From NCBI GenBank assembly GCA_003166795.1, contig PMUS01000080.1:1-46149 (forward strand): 46,149 nt of DNA, written 5' to 3'. The notes below the pieces were generated by a model that saw only the letters and a program-made list of their open reading frames with translations, had not been told where the DNA came from and searched no databases. Within the stretch, counting starts at the first letter, position 1, and each line of letters begins with the position of its first letter. Shown in pieces: positions 29,766 through 36,637 of the stretch. The DNA is from Acidobacteriota bacterium (GTDB lineage Bacteria > Acidobacteriota > Terriglobia > Acidiferrales > UBA7541). A program made the position numbers and the translations under genes.

Positions 29766-30761
29766 TCACCAGCCGAGAATATAGGCGAACATGAGCGGGG
29801 CGACGATGGTGGCGTCGGATTCGATGACGAAGCGCGGCGTGTCCACGCTCAGCTTGCCCCAGGTGATTTTCTCGTTGGGGACGGCGCCGGAATAGGAGCC
29901 GTAGCTCGTGGTCGAATCGCTGATCTGGCAGAAATAGGCCCAGAGCGGAACATTGGGACGCTTCAAATCCTGGTGAAGCATGGGGACGACGCAGATCGGA
30001 AAGTCGCCGGCGATGCCGCCGCCGATCTGGTAGAAACCAAGAGGCGTTTTCGTGGCTGTCTCCGTATACCAACGGGCCAGTTCCATCATGTACTCAATCC
30101 CGCCCCGCATGGTCGTGGCGGTTTTTACGTTTCCGCCGATGACTTGCGCCGCGAACATGTTGCCGAGTGTGGAATCCTCCCAGCCGGGAACGAACATCGG
30201 CAGGTTCTTTTCGGCGGCGGCCATCATCCAGCTATCTTTGGGATCGATCTGGTAGAACTGCTTCAGCTTCCCCGACAGGAGAACCTTGAAAAGAAATTCG
30301 TGCGGGAAGAATCGCTGCGAGGATTTGTCCGCGGTGTACCAGTCGTCCATAATCGCGCGCTCGATGCGGCGCATCGCTTCTTCCTCGGGAATGCACGTGT
30401 CCGTGACGCGATTCAGGTGATGATTGAGTAGCTCGACTTCCTCGGCAGGGGAAAGGTGACGGTAGTGAGGAACGCGCTTGTAATGGTCGTGCGCGACGAG
30501 ATTGTAAACGTCCTCCTCGAGATTGGCGCCGGTGCAGCAGATTCCGTGGACCTTGCCCTGGCGAATCATCTCGGCGAGCGAAAGCCCAAGCTCCGCGGTG
30601 CTCATCGCGCCCGCGAGCGTGACGAACATCTTGCCGCCGCTCGAGAGGTGCTCCACGTACGCTTCCGAGGCGTCAATCACCACGGCCGCATTGAAATGGC
30701 GATAGTGGTGCTTCACGAAGGACGTGATGGGACTTCCCGGTCGTGTCTCAGGCGCGCTCAT
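29766..30761 (-). CDS. Deoxyhypusine synthase-like protein
   Basis: A 331-residue cytoplasmic NAD-dependent enzyme of the deoxyhypusine synthase family. In eukaryotes and archaea this family transfers the aminobutyl group of spermidine to a Lys of eIF5A; bacteria lack eIF5A, and characterised or proposed bacterial relatives use free polyamines (homospermidine-synthase-like). The NAD-binding phrase FVTLAGAMSTAELG, CTGANLEEDVYN, QIGGGIAGDFPICV and the active-site Lys in EKITWGKLS are all preserved, so it should form the enzyme-imine intermediate. AAGGAGA precedes the ATG at 30761. It is isolated, divergent to the Tol operon, so its substrate cannot be read from context. Confidence 0.85.
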   Translation of the reverse strand: MSAPETRPGSPITSFVKHHYRHFNAAVVIDASEAYVEHLSSGGKMFVTLAGAMSTAELGLSLAEMIRQGKVHGICCTGANLEEDVYNLVAHDHYKRVPHYRHLSPAEEVELLNHHLNRVTDTCIPEEEAMRRIERAIMDDWYTADKSSQRFFPHEFLFKVLLSGKLKQFYQIDPKDSWMMAAAEKNLPMFVPGWEDSTLGNMFAAQVIGGNVKTATTMRGGIEYMMELARWYTETATKTPLGFYQIGGGIAGDFPICVVPMLHQDLKRPNVPLWAYFCQISDSTTSYGSYSGAVPNEKITWGKLSVDTPRFVIESDATIVAPLMFAYILGW

Positions 30762-31255
30762 GAAATCTCCTTGGGCCAGAATCGAGATGGAAAACACCCG
30801 TAACGGGTGAGCGTTCGCGTGACGAGAAGCGGCTAAAAGTAACTGGCCGTGTAGTTCAAAAGCCGGAAGAATTTATGCAGCGAGATATGAAATTGAAATG
30901 AAGCGCGGCAGAATCCACGAGTCACGGGGAATAAATAACACAGATGCAGGCGAACTGACTACGAAATTCTCGCGGCGGGAGAGCAACCACATGTTCCGGC
31001 GGCGCGCGGAGGTTCCGCAGGAACGGAACTTCAGCGGTTAAGGCCGGTCTCATCAAGCAGAGCCGATGTCGCCATTGAGACCACGACTTGCAAAACGTTT
31101 TAGAGTTCTCGCTCGTATTCCGGAGCTCCGATTCTCCTAGAACAGCCGACGATGAGGGGACAGTGGGGTAAATCCGGAAGGAGTCGCGCGGCAATATCAA
31201 GGCTCGGGTGTGTCGTTTGAGACAGCTTTAATCTTCGAATGCGCGTCTGATAAGT
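30762..31255. other. Intergenic region before the Tol operon
   Basis: About 490 bases between divergent genes without a supported gene. At 31011-31024 GGTTCCGCAGGAAC is a perfect short palindrome, followed by CTTCAGCGGTTAAGGCC, a phrase that resembles dispersed acidobacterial non-coding elements; only one copy is seen here. The promoter of tolQ follows at 31256. Confidence 0.45.
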
Positions 31256-31284
31256 TTGAATCTGCTGAGTGCGTGTGCTACGGT
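31256..31284 (+). promoter_or_regulatory. Predicted promoter of the Tol-Pal operon
   Basis: TTGAAT (31256-31261), a 17-base spacer and TACGGT (31279-31284), with an extended TGc before the -10. The transcript would start near 31291, giving a leader of about 35 bases to the proposed ATT start of tolQ. Confidence 0.55.
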
Positions 31285-31325
31285 AGTTTTGCCCGGCAAA
31301 ATTTCGTTCTTTCAAGGGGGAAACA

Positions 31326-32024
31326 ATTTCTGGCCTGGCGCTGCTCCTTTTTGCCAGCCCCCTCACTCTTCTGGAACAGACGAGTGGGGTGGCAAGAGTT
31401 ATCCTCGGAATACTTCTGCTACTTTCTGTTTTCTCCTGGGCGTTAATTCTCCAGAAATATTCCCAGCTTGGCGGGCTCGACAGTAAAACCTCGAAGTTTT
31501 TGCAGATGTTTCGGGCAGGCCGGGGACTTTCCGATCCGAACACGTTGCGCGCCGGCGTCGGCGTGACCCCGTTGATATCGGTGTACGCAGCTGGATACCG
31601 CGAACTCGAATCGCAAATCGGCGGCGCAAATCCTCGAGCAGGCGTGGCCGGCAAGCTGAGGAACGCGAGCGCGGTCGGCGTGGAGATGCAGGTGGCAGCG
31701 GGAGAAGAAGTTCGACGCCTTGAAAAGGGAATGTCCTCACTTGCCACGATCGCCTCGGTATCGCCGTTCATTGGATTGTTTGGTACGGTCTGGGGCGTAA
31801 TGGACGCGTTCGCGGGATTGGGCGACGCGGGCGCTGCAAGCCTGCGCGCGGTTGCTCCGGGAATCGCGGAAGCGCTGGTCACGACTGCCGCAGGGCTCTT
31901 TGCCGCCGTTCCGGCACTGATCGCCTACAACCACTACCTTCATGGCATCCGCGGCGTTGCATCGCGGATGAACGATTTCGCCGCGGAATTCGTGTCGAAA
32001 GTTGAGACGCTGTACAACTCGTAG
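31326..32024 (+). CDS. tolQ: TolQ/ExbB proton-channel protein, likely ATT start
   Basis: Inner-membrane subunit of the Tol-Pal motor; with TolR it uses the proton gradient to energise TolA during cell constriction. From 31326 it is 232 residues. The N-terminal stretch SGLALLLFASPLTLLEQTSG runs in frame into the first transmembrane helix (VILGILLLLSVFSWALILQK), as in other TolQ proteins. The other two helices follow: ASVSPFIGLFGTVWGVMDAF, with the channel Thr/Gly pattern, and APGIAEALVTTAAGLFAAVP. The first ATG/GTG in frame is GTG at 31389, which would lose this N-terminus and has no RBS. AAGGGGG lies 5-7 bases before the ATT at 31326, so ATT is proposed. A sequencing error cannot be excluded. 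Confidence 0.88.
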   Translation: MSGLALLLFASPLTLLEQTSGVARVILGILLLLSVFSWALILQKYSQLGGLDSKTSKFLQMFRAGRGLSDPNTLRAGVGVTPLISVYAAGYRELESQIGGANPRAGVAGKLRNASAVGVEMQVAAGEEVRRLEKGMSSLATIASVSPFIGLFGTVWGVMDAFAGLGDAGAASLRAVAPGIAEALVTTAAGLFAAVPALIAYNHYLHGIRGVASRMNDFAAEFVSKVETLYNS

Positions 32025-32033
32025 ACTACTGCC

Positions 32034-32456
32034 ATGCCGTCCATCGAACGCCAGACCGGCACATCGCTCTCCGAAATCAATATGGTGCCGTTTATTGACG
32101 TGGTGCTAGTGCTGCTGATTATTTTCATGATAACGGCGCCGATCCTGCAGTCGGGCATCGAAGTGGACGTGCCGAAAACGAAAACCGTGAAGGAGCTGAC
32201 CGAGGTGCGGATGGTCGTAACCATAGACCGCGGGCAGCGCGTATATCTGAACGACAAGCCCGTGAACATTCACGACATCGGCCAACAGGTTGTGGCGCAA
32301 TCTCCAGATCCGAAGAAACAAGCTGTTTATGTGCGCTGCGACGAAAGCGTTCCGTTCGGGAGCTGGGCGACGGTGGTTGACGCGCTTCGCCAGGCGGGAA
32401 TCCAAAATGTGAGCGTCGTAACGCAGCCGCTCAGCGAACGGCCATCGGCTCAGTGA
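32034..32456 (+). CDS. tolR: TolR/ExbD channel protein
   Basis: A 140-residue single-pass membrane protein that forms the proton path with TolQ. The hallmark Asp within the membrane helix is in MVPFIDVVLVLLIIFMITAP (about 17-36), preceded by SLSEINMVP. The periplasmic domain contains VDVPKTKTVKE, VTIDRGQRVYLNDKPV and a closing QAGIQNVSVVTQP, matching the ExbD/TolR fold. It starts nine bases after tolQ and is followed by the TolA-like gene one base after its stop, so the three are co-translated. Given tolB and pal downstream, TolR is preferred to ExbD. Confidence 0.94.
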   Translation: MPSIERQTGTSLSEINMVPFIDVVLVLLIIFMITAPILQSGIEVDVPKTKTVKELTEVRMVVTIDRGQRVYLNDKPVNIHDIGQQVVAQSPDPKKQAVYVRCDESVPFGSWATVVDALRQAGIQNVSVVTQPLSERPSAQ

Positions 32457-32457
32457 A

Positions 32458-33246
32458 ATGACAGCTCTCGCCGCAACTCGACCTAACGATTTGCTCAAGA
32501 CCTTCGTTTATATCTCGCTCATCGTTCATTTGACGCTGTGCGTTTTGGCCGGTCTCTATGCGTATTTCAATGGGCGGCAGGCAGATTGGGGAGGGCCGGG
32601 CGGCTCGATCACCGTGGGACTCGTCGGCAACGTGCCTGCGATCCCGCTTCCCCGCCCTGATGTGGTGTCGCCGAATCGCGTCGTGGATGACTCGAAAGGA
32701 CTGTTCAAGTCCGAACCTGCACCGGTGCCCAAGCCCGCGCCAGAAGCCATTCCGATACCAAAATTCGAACGGAACAAACCGCCGAAATATGTTACGCGGC
32801 CGTCGAAAGTGCTGGAAAATCCCACTCCGGCGCCACAAAACGCGATTCCCTACGGCGGAGGGGGGACTCCGACGGTGCCGACAACGTCTTTTGCGCTCGG
32901 TGCGGGCACGACGCAGGCCGGACTCGGATTTACGGGCACGGCGGGCGGTGATTTCGGTTCGCGATTTTCGTGGTACGTCGAGGCGGTGCAACGCCGCATC
33001 AGCGGCAATTGGCTGGCGTCAACAGTGGACCCCAGCGTAGCTACGGCGCCGCGCGTAGTCGTTACGTTCACGATTTTGCGGGACGGCACGGTAACGAATA
33101 TTCAGATGACCCAACGGAGCAACAACAGTTCAGTAGACAGCTCGGCGACCCGCGCCGTGCAGGATTCAAGCCCGCTGGCGCGGCTGCCGGCGGAATATTC
33201 GGGATCGAGTGTGAACGTGGAGTTCTGGTTCGATTTTCACCGTTGA
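32458..33246 (+). CDS. TolA/TonB-like energy transducer
   Basis: A 262-residue protein anchored by one N-terminal helix (TFVYISLIVHLTLCVLAGLY). A Pro/Lys-rich stretch follows (PAPVPKPAPEAIPIPKFERN, then KPPKYVTRPSKVLENPTPAP), as expected for a rod that spans the periplasm, and a Gly-rich linker. The C-terminal domain (about 165-260), starting SWYVEAVQRRISGNW and continuing VTFTILRDGTVTNIQM, is of the TonB/TolA C-terminal type. By position between tolR and tolB it fills the role of TolA, linking the TolQR motor to TolB and Pal. Its ATG is one base after the tolR stop. The symbol is left blank as the C-terminal domain is closer to TonB in pattern. Confidence 0.87.
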   Translation: MTALAATRPNDLLKTFVYISLIVHLTLCVLAGLYAYFNGRQADWGGPGGSITVGLVGNVPAIPLPRPDVVSPNRVVDDSKGLFKSEPAPVPKPAPEAIPIPKFERNKPPKYVTRPSKVLENPTPAPQNAIPYGGGGTPTVPTTSFALGAGTTQAGLGFTGTAGGDFGSRFSWYVEAVQRRISGNWLASTVDPSVATAPRVVVTFTILRDGTVTNIQMTQRSNNSSVDSSATRAVQDSSPLARLPAEYSGSSVNVEFWFDFHR

Positions 33247-33321
33247 TTGAGCTCGCGACGGAGACACTGAGGCATGCCAAAGATGGAACAATGATTGAAA
33301 TTCGGGAAGACCGAAGGGCAA

Positions 33322-34725
33322 ATGAAATCATCTAACCGTTGGCGATACAGCATTCATAAGAGGTGTCTATTGGCGATACGGACGTTTACACCGCTGTCAT
33401 TTCTGAAACTTACCCTGATATTGACTTTGGCATTCTCCGCGTTGGCGCGGCCTTCGGCTGCGCAGGATTGGTTCAAGACCGGCACGGGCCTAGGAGTCAC
33501 TAAGGCGCGGCTCGCGCTGCCGGAAACGGCGGCTCGTTCGACGTTCGCGCAGCCGCTGCCCAAGACTTTTCACGATGTGGTGTGGGCGGACCTCGACTAT
33601 TCCGGGATCGTTGATATGGTTAGCCCGAGCTTTTACCCGGTGCAAGTGCCGGGCCAGCCGAGCGAGCTGAAGGCGGAGGATTGGGCGGCCGCTCCAGCGA
33701 ACGCATACATGGTGGCATACGGCAACCTTTCGACGGACGCATCAGGCATCGCTTTCGCCGGGTATCTTGCCGACGTGCACAATCCGACGGCTCCGCTCGC
33801 GCTGCAAAAAATCTACCGCGGCGCGGCGACGGATGCCGACGCGAGGCGCATGGCGCATCAGTTTGCGGACGATATTATCGGCGTGCTGAGCGGCGGGCAA
33901 CTCGGTATCGCCCAAACCAAGATTGCTTATGCCAGCGCGCGGAACGGCAATAAAGAGATATGGGTGATGGATTACGACGGAGCGAACCAGCAGCAACTCA
34001 CGCACCTGAAATCCATTTCGCTCACTCCGCGGTGGTCGCCGGATGCCACGCGAATCGCGTTTACGTGCTTCGCGCCATACCGCGGCGTTACTTCAGCGCA
34101 GATTTGCATTTACTCGACCGCGTCAGATCGCTTGATAGCGTTCCCGCGGTATCGCGGAACGAATGGCTCGCCCGCATGGTCTCCCGACGGCTCGGAGATC
34201 GCATTTATGTCGAGCTTGAACGGCGATCCGGAAATTTACATCTCGGACGCAACCGGGGCGCATTTGCACCGTATTACGTTTGCCGCCGGGGTGAGCACGT
34301 CGCCGGCATGGAATCCGAAGACGGGCAAGCAAATGGCGTTCGTGAGCGACCGCGGGGGGTCACCGGTGCTGTATCTCGCGAATTCCGACGGGTCCGACGT
34401 GGAAAAGTTGAATCTGCCCGACATGGGATACGTGATCGATCCGGCGTGGTCACCAAATGGACAATTGCTGGCATTTAGCTGGCGACGTCCGAGCGGCAAC
34501 TACGATATCTACGCTATGGACATCGTGAGCCGACAACTGGTCGAGCTGACACGCGATGCGGGACGCAACGAGCGCCCCAGTTGGGCGCCCGATGGCCGGC
34601 ATCTTGTTTTCGAATCCACGCGCACGGGGACTCGGCAAATATGGTCCATGCTGGCGGATGGCAGCCAGCCGCATCAATTGACATTCGAAGGGCAGAATGA
34701 ATCGCCCAGTTGGTCGTCGAAGTGA
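33322..34725 (+). CDS. tolB: Tol-Pal system beta-propeller protein TolB
   Basis: A 467-residue periplasmic protein with an N-terminal signal region (LSFLKLTLILTLAFSALARP, cleavage near SAAQ). The N-terminal TolB domain (about 50-200) includes FHDVVWADLDYSGIVDMVSP. It is followed by a six-bladed WD40-like propeller made of repeated blades ending like PRWSPDATRIAF, PAWSPDGSEIAF, PAWNPKTGKQMAF, PAWSPNGQLLAF and PSWAPDGRHLVF. The propeller binds Pal at the outer membrane. The ATG at 33322 with AAGGG just upstream is preferred over a TTG at 33295. It sits directly between the TolA-like and Pal genes. Confidence 0.93.
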   Translation: MKSSNRWRYSIHKRCLLAIRTFTPLSFLKLTLILTLAFSALARPSAAQDWFKTGTGLGVTKARLALPETAARSTFAQPLPKTFHDVVWADLDYSGIVDMVSPSFYPVQVPGQPSELKAEDWAAAPANAYMVAYGNLSTDASGIAFAGYLADVHNPTAPLALQKIYRGAATDADARRMAHQFADDIIGVLSGGQLGIAQTKIAYASARNGNKEIWVMDYDGANQQQLTHLKSISLTPRWSPDATRIAFTCFAPYRGVTSAQICIYSTASDRLIAFPRYRGTNGSPAWSPDGSEIAFMSSLNGDPEIYISDATGAHLHRITFAAGVSTSPAWNPKTGKQMAFVSDRGGSPVLYLANSDGSDVEKLNLPDMGYVIDPAWSPNGQLLAFSWRRPSGNYDIYAMDIVSRQLVELTRDAGRNERPSWAPDGRHLVFESTRTGTRQIWSMLADGSQPHQLTFEGQNESPSWSSK

Positions 34726-34830
34726 CGGAGACGAATTATTTAAATGGCATAAGGAATATTGCCAGCACTAACGAGTAAGCGTATTCACGGCGAAGCCGCA
34801 GAGCCCTCTCGGCGCCGAAGGAGGCAATTC

Positions 34831-35580
34831 ATGCACCACAGTACTTTTCGAAAGTTCACATTGCTGTTCGGCCTCGTAGCTCTTGTCGCCATTGCCGGCG
34901 GCTGCAAGAAAAAGGTGGCGGCAACGCCGCCTGCGCCGCCCCCGACTCCAACGCTGCAGCCAACGGTGACGCTGAATGCTTCGCCGACTTCAGTGAATCC
35001 GGGCGGAACAGTAACGCTCTCCTGGTCGTCCACCAACGCAACGGACCTGGATATCGAGCCCGGCGTAGGGAAAGTTGCGCCGCAAGGCTCGACTCCGGTG
35101 AATCCGACGCAGACCACGACGTTCACGATTACGGCGACCGGCGCCGGCGGCAGCGCCACTGCGAGCGCGAACGTTGCGGTGAATGGTTCGTCGGCCCCGA
35201 CGGCGGAAGCGCCGACAGAGCAGCCGGGCGTCAACGAACTCTTCGAGCAAAATGTGAAGGACGCATATTTTGAACTCGACAAATCCGATCTTCGCGACGA
35301 CGCTCGCGCCGTGCTGACCAAGGATGCGGAGTTCTTCCGTTCGTATCCGCAGGTCAAGGTTTCGCTCGAGGGCCATTGCGACGAGCGCGGTTCGACGGAA
35401 TACAACCTGGGTCTCGGCCAGAGGCGCGCCGAGGCTGCGAAGAACTACCTGATCTCGCTCGGCATTTCAGCCGATCGGATCGAAACAACGAGCTGGGGCA
35501 AAGAGCGACCGTTCTGCACCGAGCATGACGAATCCTGCTGGCAGCAGAATCGCCGCGCGCACTTCGTTCTGGCACACTAA
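34831..35580 (+). CDS. pal: Peptidoglycan-associated lipoprotein Pal with Ig-like insert
   Basis: A 249-residue outer-membrane lipoprotein. The lipobox is AIAGGC, with the Cys near residue 25, then KKKVAATPPAP. An insert of about 80 residues (VTLNASPTSVNPGGTVTLSW, then STNATDLDIEPGVG, ending TASANVAV) looks like a bacterial Ig-like domain, not present in E. coli Pal. The C-terminal OmpA-like domain (about 140-249) starts at DAYFELDKSDLRDDAR and includes EGHCDERGSTEYNLGLGQRR, which binds meso-DAP-type peptidoglycan. GAAGGAGG precedes the ATG at 34831; the longer in-frame start is rejected. Fourth or fifth gene of the Tol operon; it requires Lgt for lipidation. Confidence 0.93.
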   Translation: MHHSTFRKFTLLFGLVALVAIAGGCKKKVAATPPAPPPTPTLQPTVTLNASPTSVNPGGTVTLSWSSTNATDLDIEPGVGKVAPQGSTPVNPTQTTTFTITATGAGGSATASANVAVNGSSAPTAEAPTEQPGVNELFEQNVKDAYFELDKSDLRDDARAVLTKDAEFFRSYPQVKVSLEGHCDERGSTEYNLGLGQRRAEAAKNYLISLGISADRIETTSWGKERPFCTEHDESCWQQNRRAHFVLAH

Positions 35581-35704: not shown

Positions 35705-36637
35705 TTGCGCACACGATGGCTCGCGCTGGTACTTGCAGCGGTGTTCTGCGGCGCAGTCGGCGGGACGCTGTTCGCTCCCCAGCCTGCGGGCGCCGTCTCG
35801 AAAGAAATGATTGAGCTCCAGCAGCAGGTGACGCAGATTTTGCAGGCGCAGCAAGACCTGCGCAGCGCGGTGGACGGCAACAACGCCGCGCTGAGGACGC
35901 TGGTGCAGCAGTCGCTCGACTCCGTGAACAGACTCGACGGCGAGATGGGCTCGCTGCAAAAGTCGGTGCAGGAAGTGCAAGCGAATACGGGCGCCCGCAT
36001 TGACACCATGACGCAGCAGACGCAGGGAATTTCCGACAACATGCAGGACGTACAGTCGCGCGTGGCAAAGCTTTCGCAGCAATTGACCGACGTCCAGAAC
36101 CTGCTCCAGAGCATTGATGCGAAAGTTTCCGGTGGCTCGACGACGGGAGCTCCGGCGGCGATGAATGCGCCCGGCGGAAACCCGGACAACAGCGCGCCCG
36201 CACCACCGTCAGCGCCGGTGGGGCTAGCGCCGATTTCCGCGGACACGCTCTATCAAAATGGACTGCGCGACCTGACCGGCGGTAAGTACGACCTGGCGCG
36301 GCAGGAGTTCTCGGACTACATCAAGAATTTCCCTTCGAACGACCTGGCGTCGAATGCGACGTTTTATCTTGGCGAGATTGCCTACGCGCAAGACGATTTC
36401 AAGGGCGCTATCGCGTCGTACGACACCGTGCTGGCAAACTATCCCAAAAGCTTCAAGCTGCCGGCTTCTCTTTTGAAGAAAGCGATGGCCGAACTCGAGC
36501 TGGGGATGAAGGCGAGTGGAATACGCGATCTGCGAGAGGTTGACCGCCGCTTTGCCGGCTCGGATGAAGCGAGACGTGCGCAGGCGAAACTGCGCGAGCT
36601 CGGCGCGGCCACGACGACGCGCCCGTCCACGCGCTGA
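35705..36637 (+). CDS. cpoB: Cell-division coordinator CpoB (YbgF)
   Basis: A 310-residue periplasmic protein that in E. coli couples the Tol motor to peptidoglycan synthesis during division. It has a signal peptide (WLALVLAAVFCGAVGGTLFA), then a long coiled coil (about 32-140: KEMIELQQQVTQILQAQQDL and later QDVQSRVAKLSQQLTDVQNL) that trimerises the protein, a Pro/Ala/Ser linker, and three TPRs (about 180-300), starting LYQNGLRDLTGGKYDLARQE. The start is TTG at 35705 with AGGAGG seven bases upstream. It is the last gene of the Tol-Pal operon, as usual. Between it and pal there are 124 bases without a gene. Confidence 0.92.
   Translation: MRTRWLALVLAAVFCGAVGGTLFAPQPAGAVSKEMIELQQQVTQILQAQQDLRSAVDGNNAALRTLVQQSLDSVNRLDGEMGSLQKSVQEVQANTGARIDTMTQQTQGISDNMQDVQSRVAKLSQQLTDVQNLLQSIDAKVSGGSTTGAPAAMNAPGGNPDNSAPAPPSAPVGLAPISADTLYQNGLRDLTGGKYDLARQEFSDYIKNFPSNDLASNATFYLGEIAYAQDDFKGAIASYDTVLANYPKSFKLPASLLKKAMAELELGMKASGIRDLREVDRRFAGSDEARRAQAKLRELGAATTTRPSTR

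Follow-up and report, generated by a model that had tools for sequence, protein, structure and literature searches.

Results and Discussion

The Tol-Pal Operon and the Start Region of tolQ

The window, by which we mean the whole stretch of 46,149 nucleotides that was analyzed, contains a Tol-Pal operon in the order tolQ, tolR, tolA/tonB-like gene, tolB, pal, and cpoB:

31326-32024, plus strand: tolQ, first gene of the operon, 232 codons plus stop
32034-32456, plus strand: tolR (ExbD/TolR; PF02472, 1.4e-30), with its ATG 9 nt after the tolQ stop
32458-33246, plus strand: tolA/tonB-like gene (TonB_2, 4.6e-16)
33295-34725, plus strand: tolB (TIGR02800, 5.6e-100), frame as listed, start may differ
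34759-35580, plus strand: pal (TIGR02802, 6.5e-41, above cut-off), frame as listed
35705-36637, plus strand: cpoB/ybgF (TIGR02795, 3.5e-27, above cut-off), frame as listed

The tolQ product contains a MotA_ExbB domain (PF01618, 5.3e-32) and matches E. coli TolQ structures at 2e-31. Its best NCBIfam match is TIGR02796 TolQ (1.4e-55), and because the score of 188 bits falls below the 221-bit equivalog cut-off, the name TolQ rests on this best match together with the operon context. A deoxyhypusine/homospermidine synthase-like gene (29766-30797, minus strand) lies divergent from tolQ.

The tolR gene of the window has no evident Shine-Dalgarno (SD) sequence in front of it, whereas outgroup loci of the same order (family f3) carry a strong one, GGAGG or GGGAG. 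Given this difference and the 9 nt gap, tolR may depend on the translation of tolQ, and translational coupling of the two genes in the window is probable. The junction varies by lineage (L012, L014, L015, L026-L028, and others), from the 9 nt without an SD seen here to long gaps elsewhere. Coupling of tolR throughout the family was not upheld, since tolR is not close to tolQ in every genus and several loci have such long gaps.

Direct reading of the DNA upstream of tolQ gave the following features:

31256-31284, plus strand: promoter, TTGAAT (31256-31261), 17 nt, and extended -10 element TGcTACGGT (31276-31284), predicted from sequence and conservation
31284-31286, plus strand: in-frame TAG stop that closes the tolQ frame upstream
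31314-31320, plus strand: Shine-Dalgarno AAGGGGG, separated from ATT by the 5 nt spacer AAACA
31326-31328, plus strand: ATT start codon of tolQ, assigned from family conservation, the homologous codons of sister families, and the tree
31389-31391, plus strand: GTG, first in-frame canonical codon (residue 22), probably the automatic but wrong start

A sequence-only reading of this DNA had proposed that tolQ starts at ATT, and its description of the letters was confirmed. After the TAG, the tolQ frame reads TTT TGC CCG GCA AAA TTT CGT TCT TTC AAG GGG GAA ACA ATT TCT GGC CTG, with no canonical start codon (ATG, GTG, or TTG) from the stop at 31284 up to the GTG at 31389, and AAGGGGG stands just before the ATT as claimed. 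The proposed promoter is likewise present, with transcription predicted to start near 31291, about 35 nt before the ATT. In 14 of the 15 loci of the genus, its TGTGCTA stands 49-55 nt ahead of the ATT (the 15th is cut by a contig end), and TTGA(AT/CC) with TGTGCTA recurs at equal spacing to the ATT throughout the genus as well as in other genera, for example in L017, L027, and L111. An RNA element or structured leader at the tolQ start was rejected: Rfam gave no match, and folding of the region was not clearly stronger than that of shuffled sequences (z 0.54 and -1.21).

Translation from the ATT would give a TolQ with the predicted N-terminus (M)SGLALLLFASPLTLLEQ. The earlier reading had this N-terminus run directly into the first TolQ helix, which needs a minor correction, as the stretch is not helix throughout: its first residues, about 14 in number, match nothing in E. 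coli TolQ, and the segment LLEQTSGVAR that comes next aligns with E. coli TolQ from residue 9.

Conservation of ATT across the Family

The window belongs to a family of soil acidobacteria, and we compared the start region among the 80 tolQ loci of this family with a readable 5′ end, which come from separately assembled genomes. ATT occupies the start site in 74 of these 80 loci, representing 10 of 13 genera, and in all readable loci of the window's own genus, as expected if the proposed start is genuine. The family loci carry an SD-like GGGGG, GAGGGG, or GGAGG 5-10 nt before the ATT. Nearly all of the genomes are metagenome assemblies, and related loci are not independent. The remaining loci have TTG (L029 and L112 of genus g6, L030 of g11), GTG (L022 and L169 of g10), or, in one g5 genome, ATG (L113), and these codons sit at or next to the homologous start codon. 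Sister families have canonical codons at the homologous place: four f3 loci carry ATG, and the f2 locus carries GTG. A few loci are ambiguous because another codon, no more than two codons from the ATT, could serve as the start: L111 and L197 read ATC GTC ATT, L208 has a TTG two codons upstream, and L211 has an ATG two codons upstream. In L212, the tolQ frame contains the ATT and not the ATG that stands near the SD.

The uniformity of this codon is unlike that of ordinary isoleucine positions. Neither ATC nor ATA occurs at the start site in any of the 80 family loci, whereas other conserved Ile columns of the tolQ alignment mix ATT, ATC, and ATA, and among 92 other conserved columns, use of a single codon peaks at 88%. 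On a quick family tree with SH-aLRT support only, and with an alignment near the start judged partly by eye, the start codon changes three times in the family and once within the ATT clade; Ile columns conserved in more than 70 loci change 8-26 times on the same tree. A codon this uniform, free of synonymous change where other Ile columns vary, does not behave as an ordinary internal isoleucine.

The stretch from the ATT to the GTG at 31389 also appears to be translated. Among loci of the genus, differences at the three codon positions are 0.27/0.11/0.49 in this stretch and 0.27/0.13/0.60 in the rest of tolQ, compared with a flat 0.70/0.65/0.57 further upstream of the ATT. With the same third-position excess as the rest of the gene, the ATT-to-GTG stretch evolves as coding sequence. 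The features that mark a conserved AUU start are thus found together: no canonical codon in frame ahead of the conserved N-terminus, in the window as in most relatives; a codon kept without synonymous drift; and a strong, well-spaced SD. From these comparisons, the assignment of AUU as the tolQ start, kept by selection, appears close to proven.

AUU is not indispensable, as L113 has ATG and g6, g10, and g11 have TTG or GTG. On the tree, the GTG (g10) and TTG (g6 and g11) lineages form an unresolved fork at the family's base, and ATT is the codon of every other genus. The data would be explained if ATT arose once and later changed to ATG in L113; g6, g10, and g11 may either never have had ATT or have lost it.

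Alternative Readings of the Start

The GTG at 31389 is the first canonical codon in the tolQ frame, and translation could in principle begin there, leaving the open stretch upstream as an untranslated leader. Several observations make this very improbable. Nine of the 15 genus loci have GTG here; of the other six, three have GTT, two GTC, and one CTG. The pattern of change in the 20 codons before this GTG is that of coding sequence, and there is no SD at a usable distance before it (score 0). The GTG also lies inside the conserved TolQ alignment, such that a start there would remove conserved residues: even with E. coli TolQ, homology begins 7 residues before 31389, and within the genus it reaches the ATT instead of beginning at 31389. 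A start at another near-cognate codon nearby (CTG at 31335 or 31341, or a codon further upstream), with the ATT an ordinary isoleucine, seems similarly remote. CTG is a possible weak start and often occupies the position of 31335 in the genus, but 31335, 31341, and the upstream codons are not conserved in relatives, the ATT shows no synonymous change, and the SD spacing fits the ATT best among the nearby near-cognate codons. The window itself comes from a single metagenome assembly, and the sequence-only reading had allowed for a base error in the contig, with ATG, GTG, or TTG at 31326 in the true genome. An error of this kind is refuted by 73 other family loci that have ATT there in separate assemblies, and we give it a negligible chance. 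The check suggested with that reading, a search for a conserved ATT in several genomes, thus found it in 74 of the 80 loci and 10 genera.

An AUU start could be real and yet neutral, if drift fixed a weak start once and the SD compensates fully, so that output is ordinary. A strong SD does adjoin the ATT, and a single origin explains the tree. Nevertheless, ATG is one substitution away from ATT, and gains of AUG are favored in prokaryotes (PMC5622118), but only one probable return to ATG was found in the survey. Moreover, in S. aureus, conserved AUU and AUA starts with extended SDs still give only about 10% of the AUG output in reporters (PMC13009471). Neutral fixation therefore appears improbable to us, albeit less so than a start at a different codon. 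Less probably, ATT might owe its retention to some other constraint on the RNA sequence.

A Weak Start as a Proposed Brake on the Tol Motor

Having weighed these alternatives, we consider the likely reading to be a real and selectively kept AUU start that would put a constitutive, IF3-sensitive brake on tolQ, at the head of the operon tolQ-R-A-B-pal-cpoB. Retention of ATT across 10 genera suggests that TolQ production may be deliberately throttled, and we infer lower output, IF3 sensitivity, and coupling to tolR. In the proposed mechanism, the initiator tRNA would pair imperfectly with the AUU at 31326, and the strong, close SD would compensate enough for initiation to proceed, at a low rate. 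This would place a fixed brake on TolQ. In the window's genus, where tolR follows closely and has no SD, the brake would probably reach the whole motor. AUU is a poor initiator that IF3 rejects, with infC and pcnB of E. coli as the classical cases (PMC9410913), and the brake should for this reason vary with IF3 activity, tightening or loosening with it. A further-reaching idea is that AUU serves as a regulatory input tying assembly of the Tol-Pal motor to IF3 activity, and thus to growth or ribosome state, throughout the family, with tolR translated only by ribosomes finishing tolQ in the window's genus; this is tentative, and we think it rather unlikely.

Weak initiation at tolQ may predate the ATT. 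Of 41 tolQ loci from class outgroups, about 22 most likely start at TTG, the commonest start there, by a reader's judgement with several loci ambiguous. TTG starts were assigned to 46 of 624 genes (7%) in scanned DNA, mostly from the same-genus genome G001, using a simple start-choice score. Because TTG is common at tolQ of the class compared with 7% of genes, weak initiation seems to be an old property of tolQ in the class, with ATT as its extreme form. A weak start that limits TolQ would be consistent with both this class-wide TTG preference and the AUU efficiency measured elsewhere. In close genome triplets, a switch of start codon from AUG to AUU is extremely rare, affecting one of 61,358 AUG starts (PMC5622118).

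The stoichiometry of the Tol motor, which the earlier reading had offered as the target of a weak start, is doubtful in that role. TolQ outnumbers the other subunits of the motor, and tolR of the genus often follows closely without an SD of its own, making the whole operon a likelier target than the ratio of subunits.

The infC gene of these genomes served as a positive control. In the window's family, infC starts at ATC, typically behind GGAGGTGGGTTT, with no canonical start at the conserved N-terminus. This ATC lies behind GGAGGT in the same genomes, which points to the use of near-cognate starts there. Across the class (L136-L165), infC of other families appears to start at ATA or ATT, or at ACG in f3, mostly with a strong SD. 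The IF3 gene is present in 38 of 41 genomes, and hence the machinery for discriminating such codons exists.

The closest known systems share features with tolQ. The E. coli infC gene starts at AUU (its counterparts at AUC, AUA, or AUU) and, like tolQ, has a near-cognate ATN start behind an SD that is conserved across genomes. It is autoregulated, its own product rejecting AUU, whereas TolQ is part of an envelope motor and, to our knowledge, has no role in initiation. E. coli tolQ belongs to the same protein family and operon type as the window tolQ and has a canonical ATG start. The AUU start of E. coli pcnB limits translation, according to Binns and Masters (2002) as cited in PMC9410913 and PMC13009471; pcnB resembles tolQ in being an AUU-start gene that does not itself encode an initiation factor and differs in gene and function. 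In S. aureus, ccpN (AUA) and cvfC1 (AUU) have conserved non-canonical starts with a strong SD and an output of about 10% of that with AUG, and cvfC1, like tolQ, is the first gene of its operon (PMC13009471). These two encode a Firmicutes regulator and a small protein and were shown experimentally, whereas the tolQ start was assigned here by comparison.

The kind of device is therefore known (infC, pcnB, ccpN, and cvfC1), and the gene and lineage are new; among the papers searched, none brings together tolQ, start codon, and AUU. Beyond infC, only a handful of genes are known to us to have conserved AUU starts. In tolQ, the start codon itself is under stabilizing selection across a bacterial family, in the gene for a membrane motor and not for a translation factor or regulator, and the role of weak starts becomes testable by a one-base change. 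Gene callers limited to ATG, GTG, and TTG will truncate or misplace the TolQ N-terminus throughout the family.

Other Candidate Non-Canonical Starts

A genome-wide relaxation of start codons was rejected. A scan of about 0.85 Mb and 625 genes, mostly from G001 plus the window, gave no excess of ATT over other codons; its sensitivity was limited, the strict setting having missed tolQ and infC of G001.

The scan also yielded individual candidates. A secreted protein of G001 (L245, contig C13, 9206-10475 in minus-strand coordinates, minus strand) has its signal peptide after GGGAGGTTTCC-ATCATC, no canonical start nearby, and a candidate ATC start; its relatives have different N-termini. A Ser/Thr kinase gene (L281-L290, L295, and L296; G001:C21:244427, G000:C98:68063-68962, and G000:C68:68883-69776) possibly represents a second non-canonical start. 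In most members of the genus, there is no ATG, GTG, or TTG at its conserved N-terminus, x-PGDQLDHYRI, and the start region reads GAGG, 6-8 nt, and then GTC, GTT, GTA, or ATT. The kinase gene is often preceded, at a distance of about 50 nt, by a gene for a probable PP2C-type phosphatase, identified only by its C-terminus, and the outgroup locus L291 has an ATG three codons upstream.
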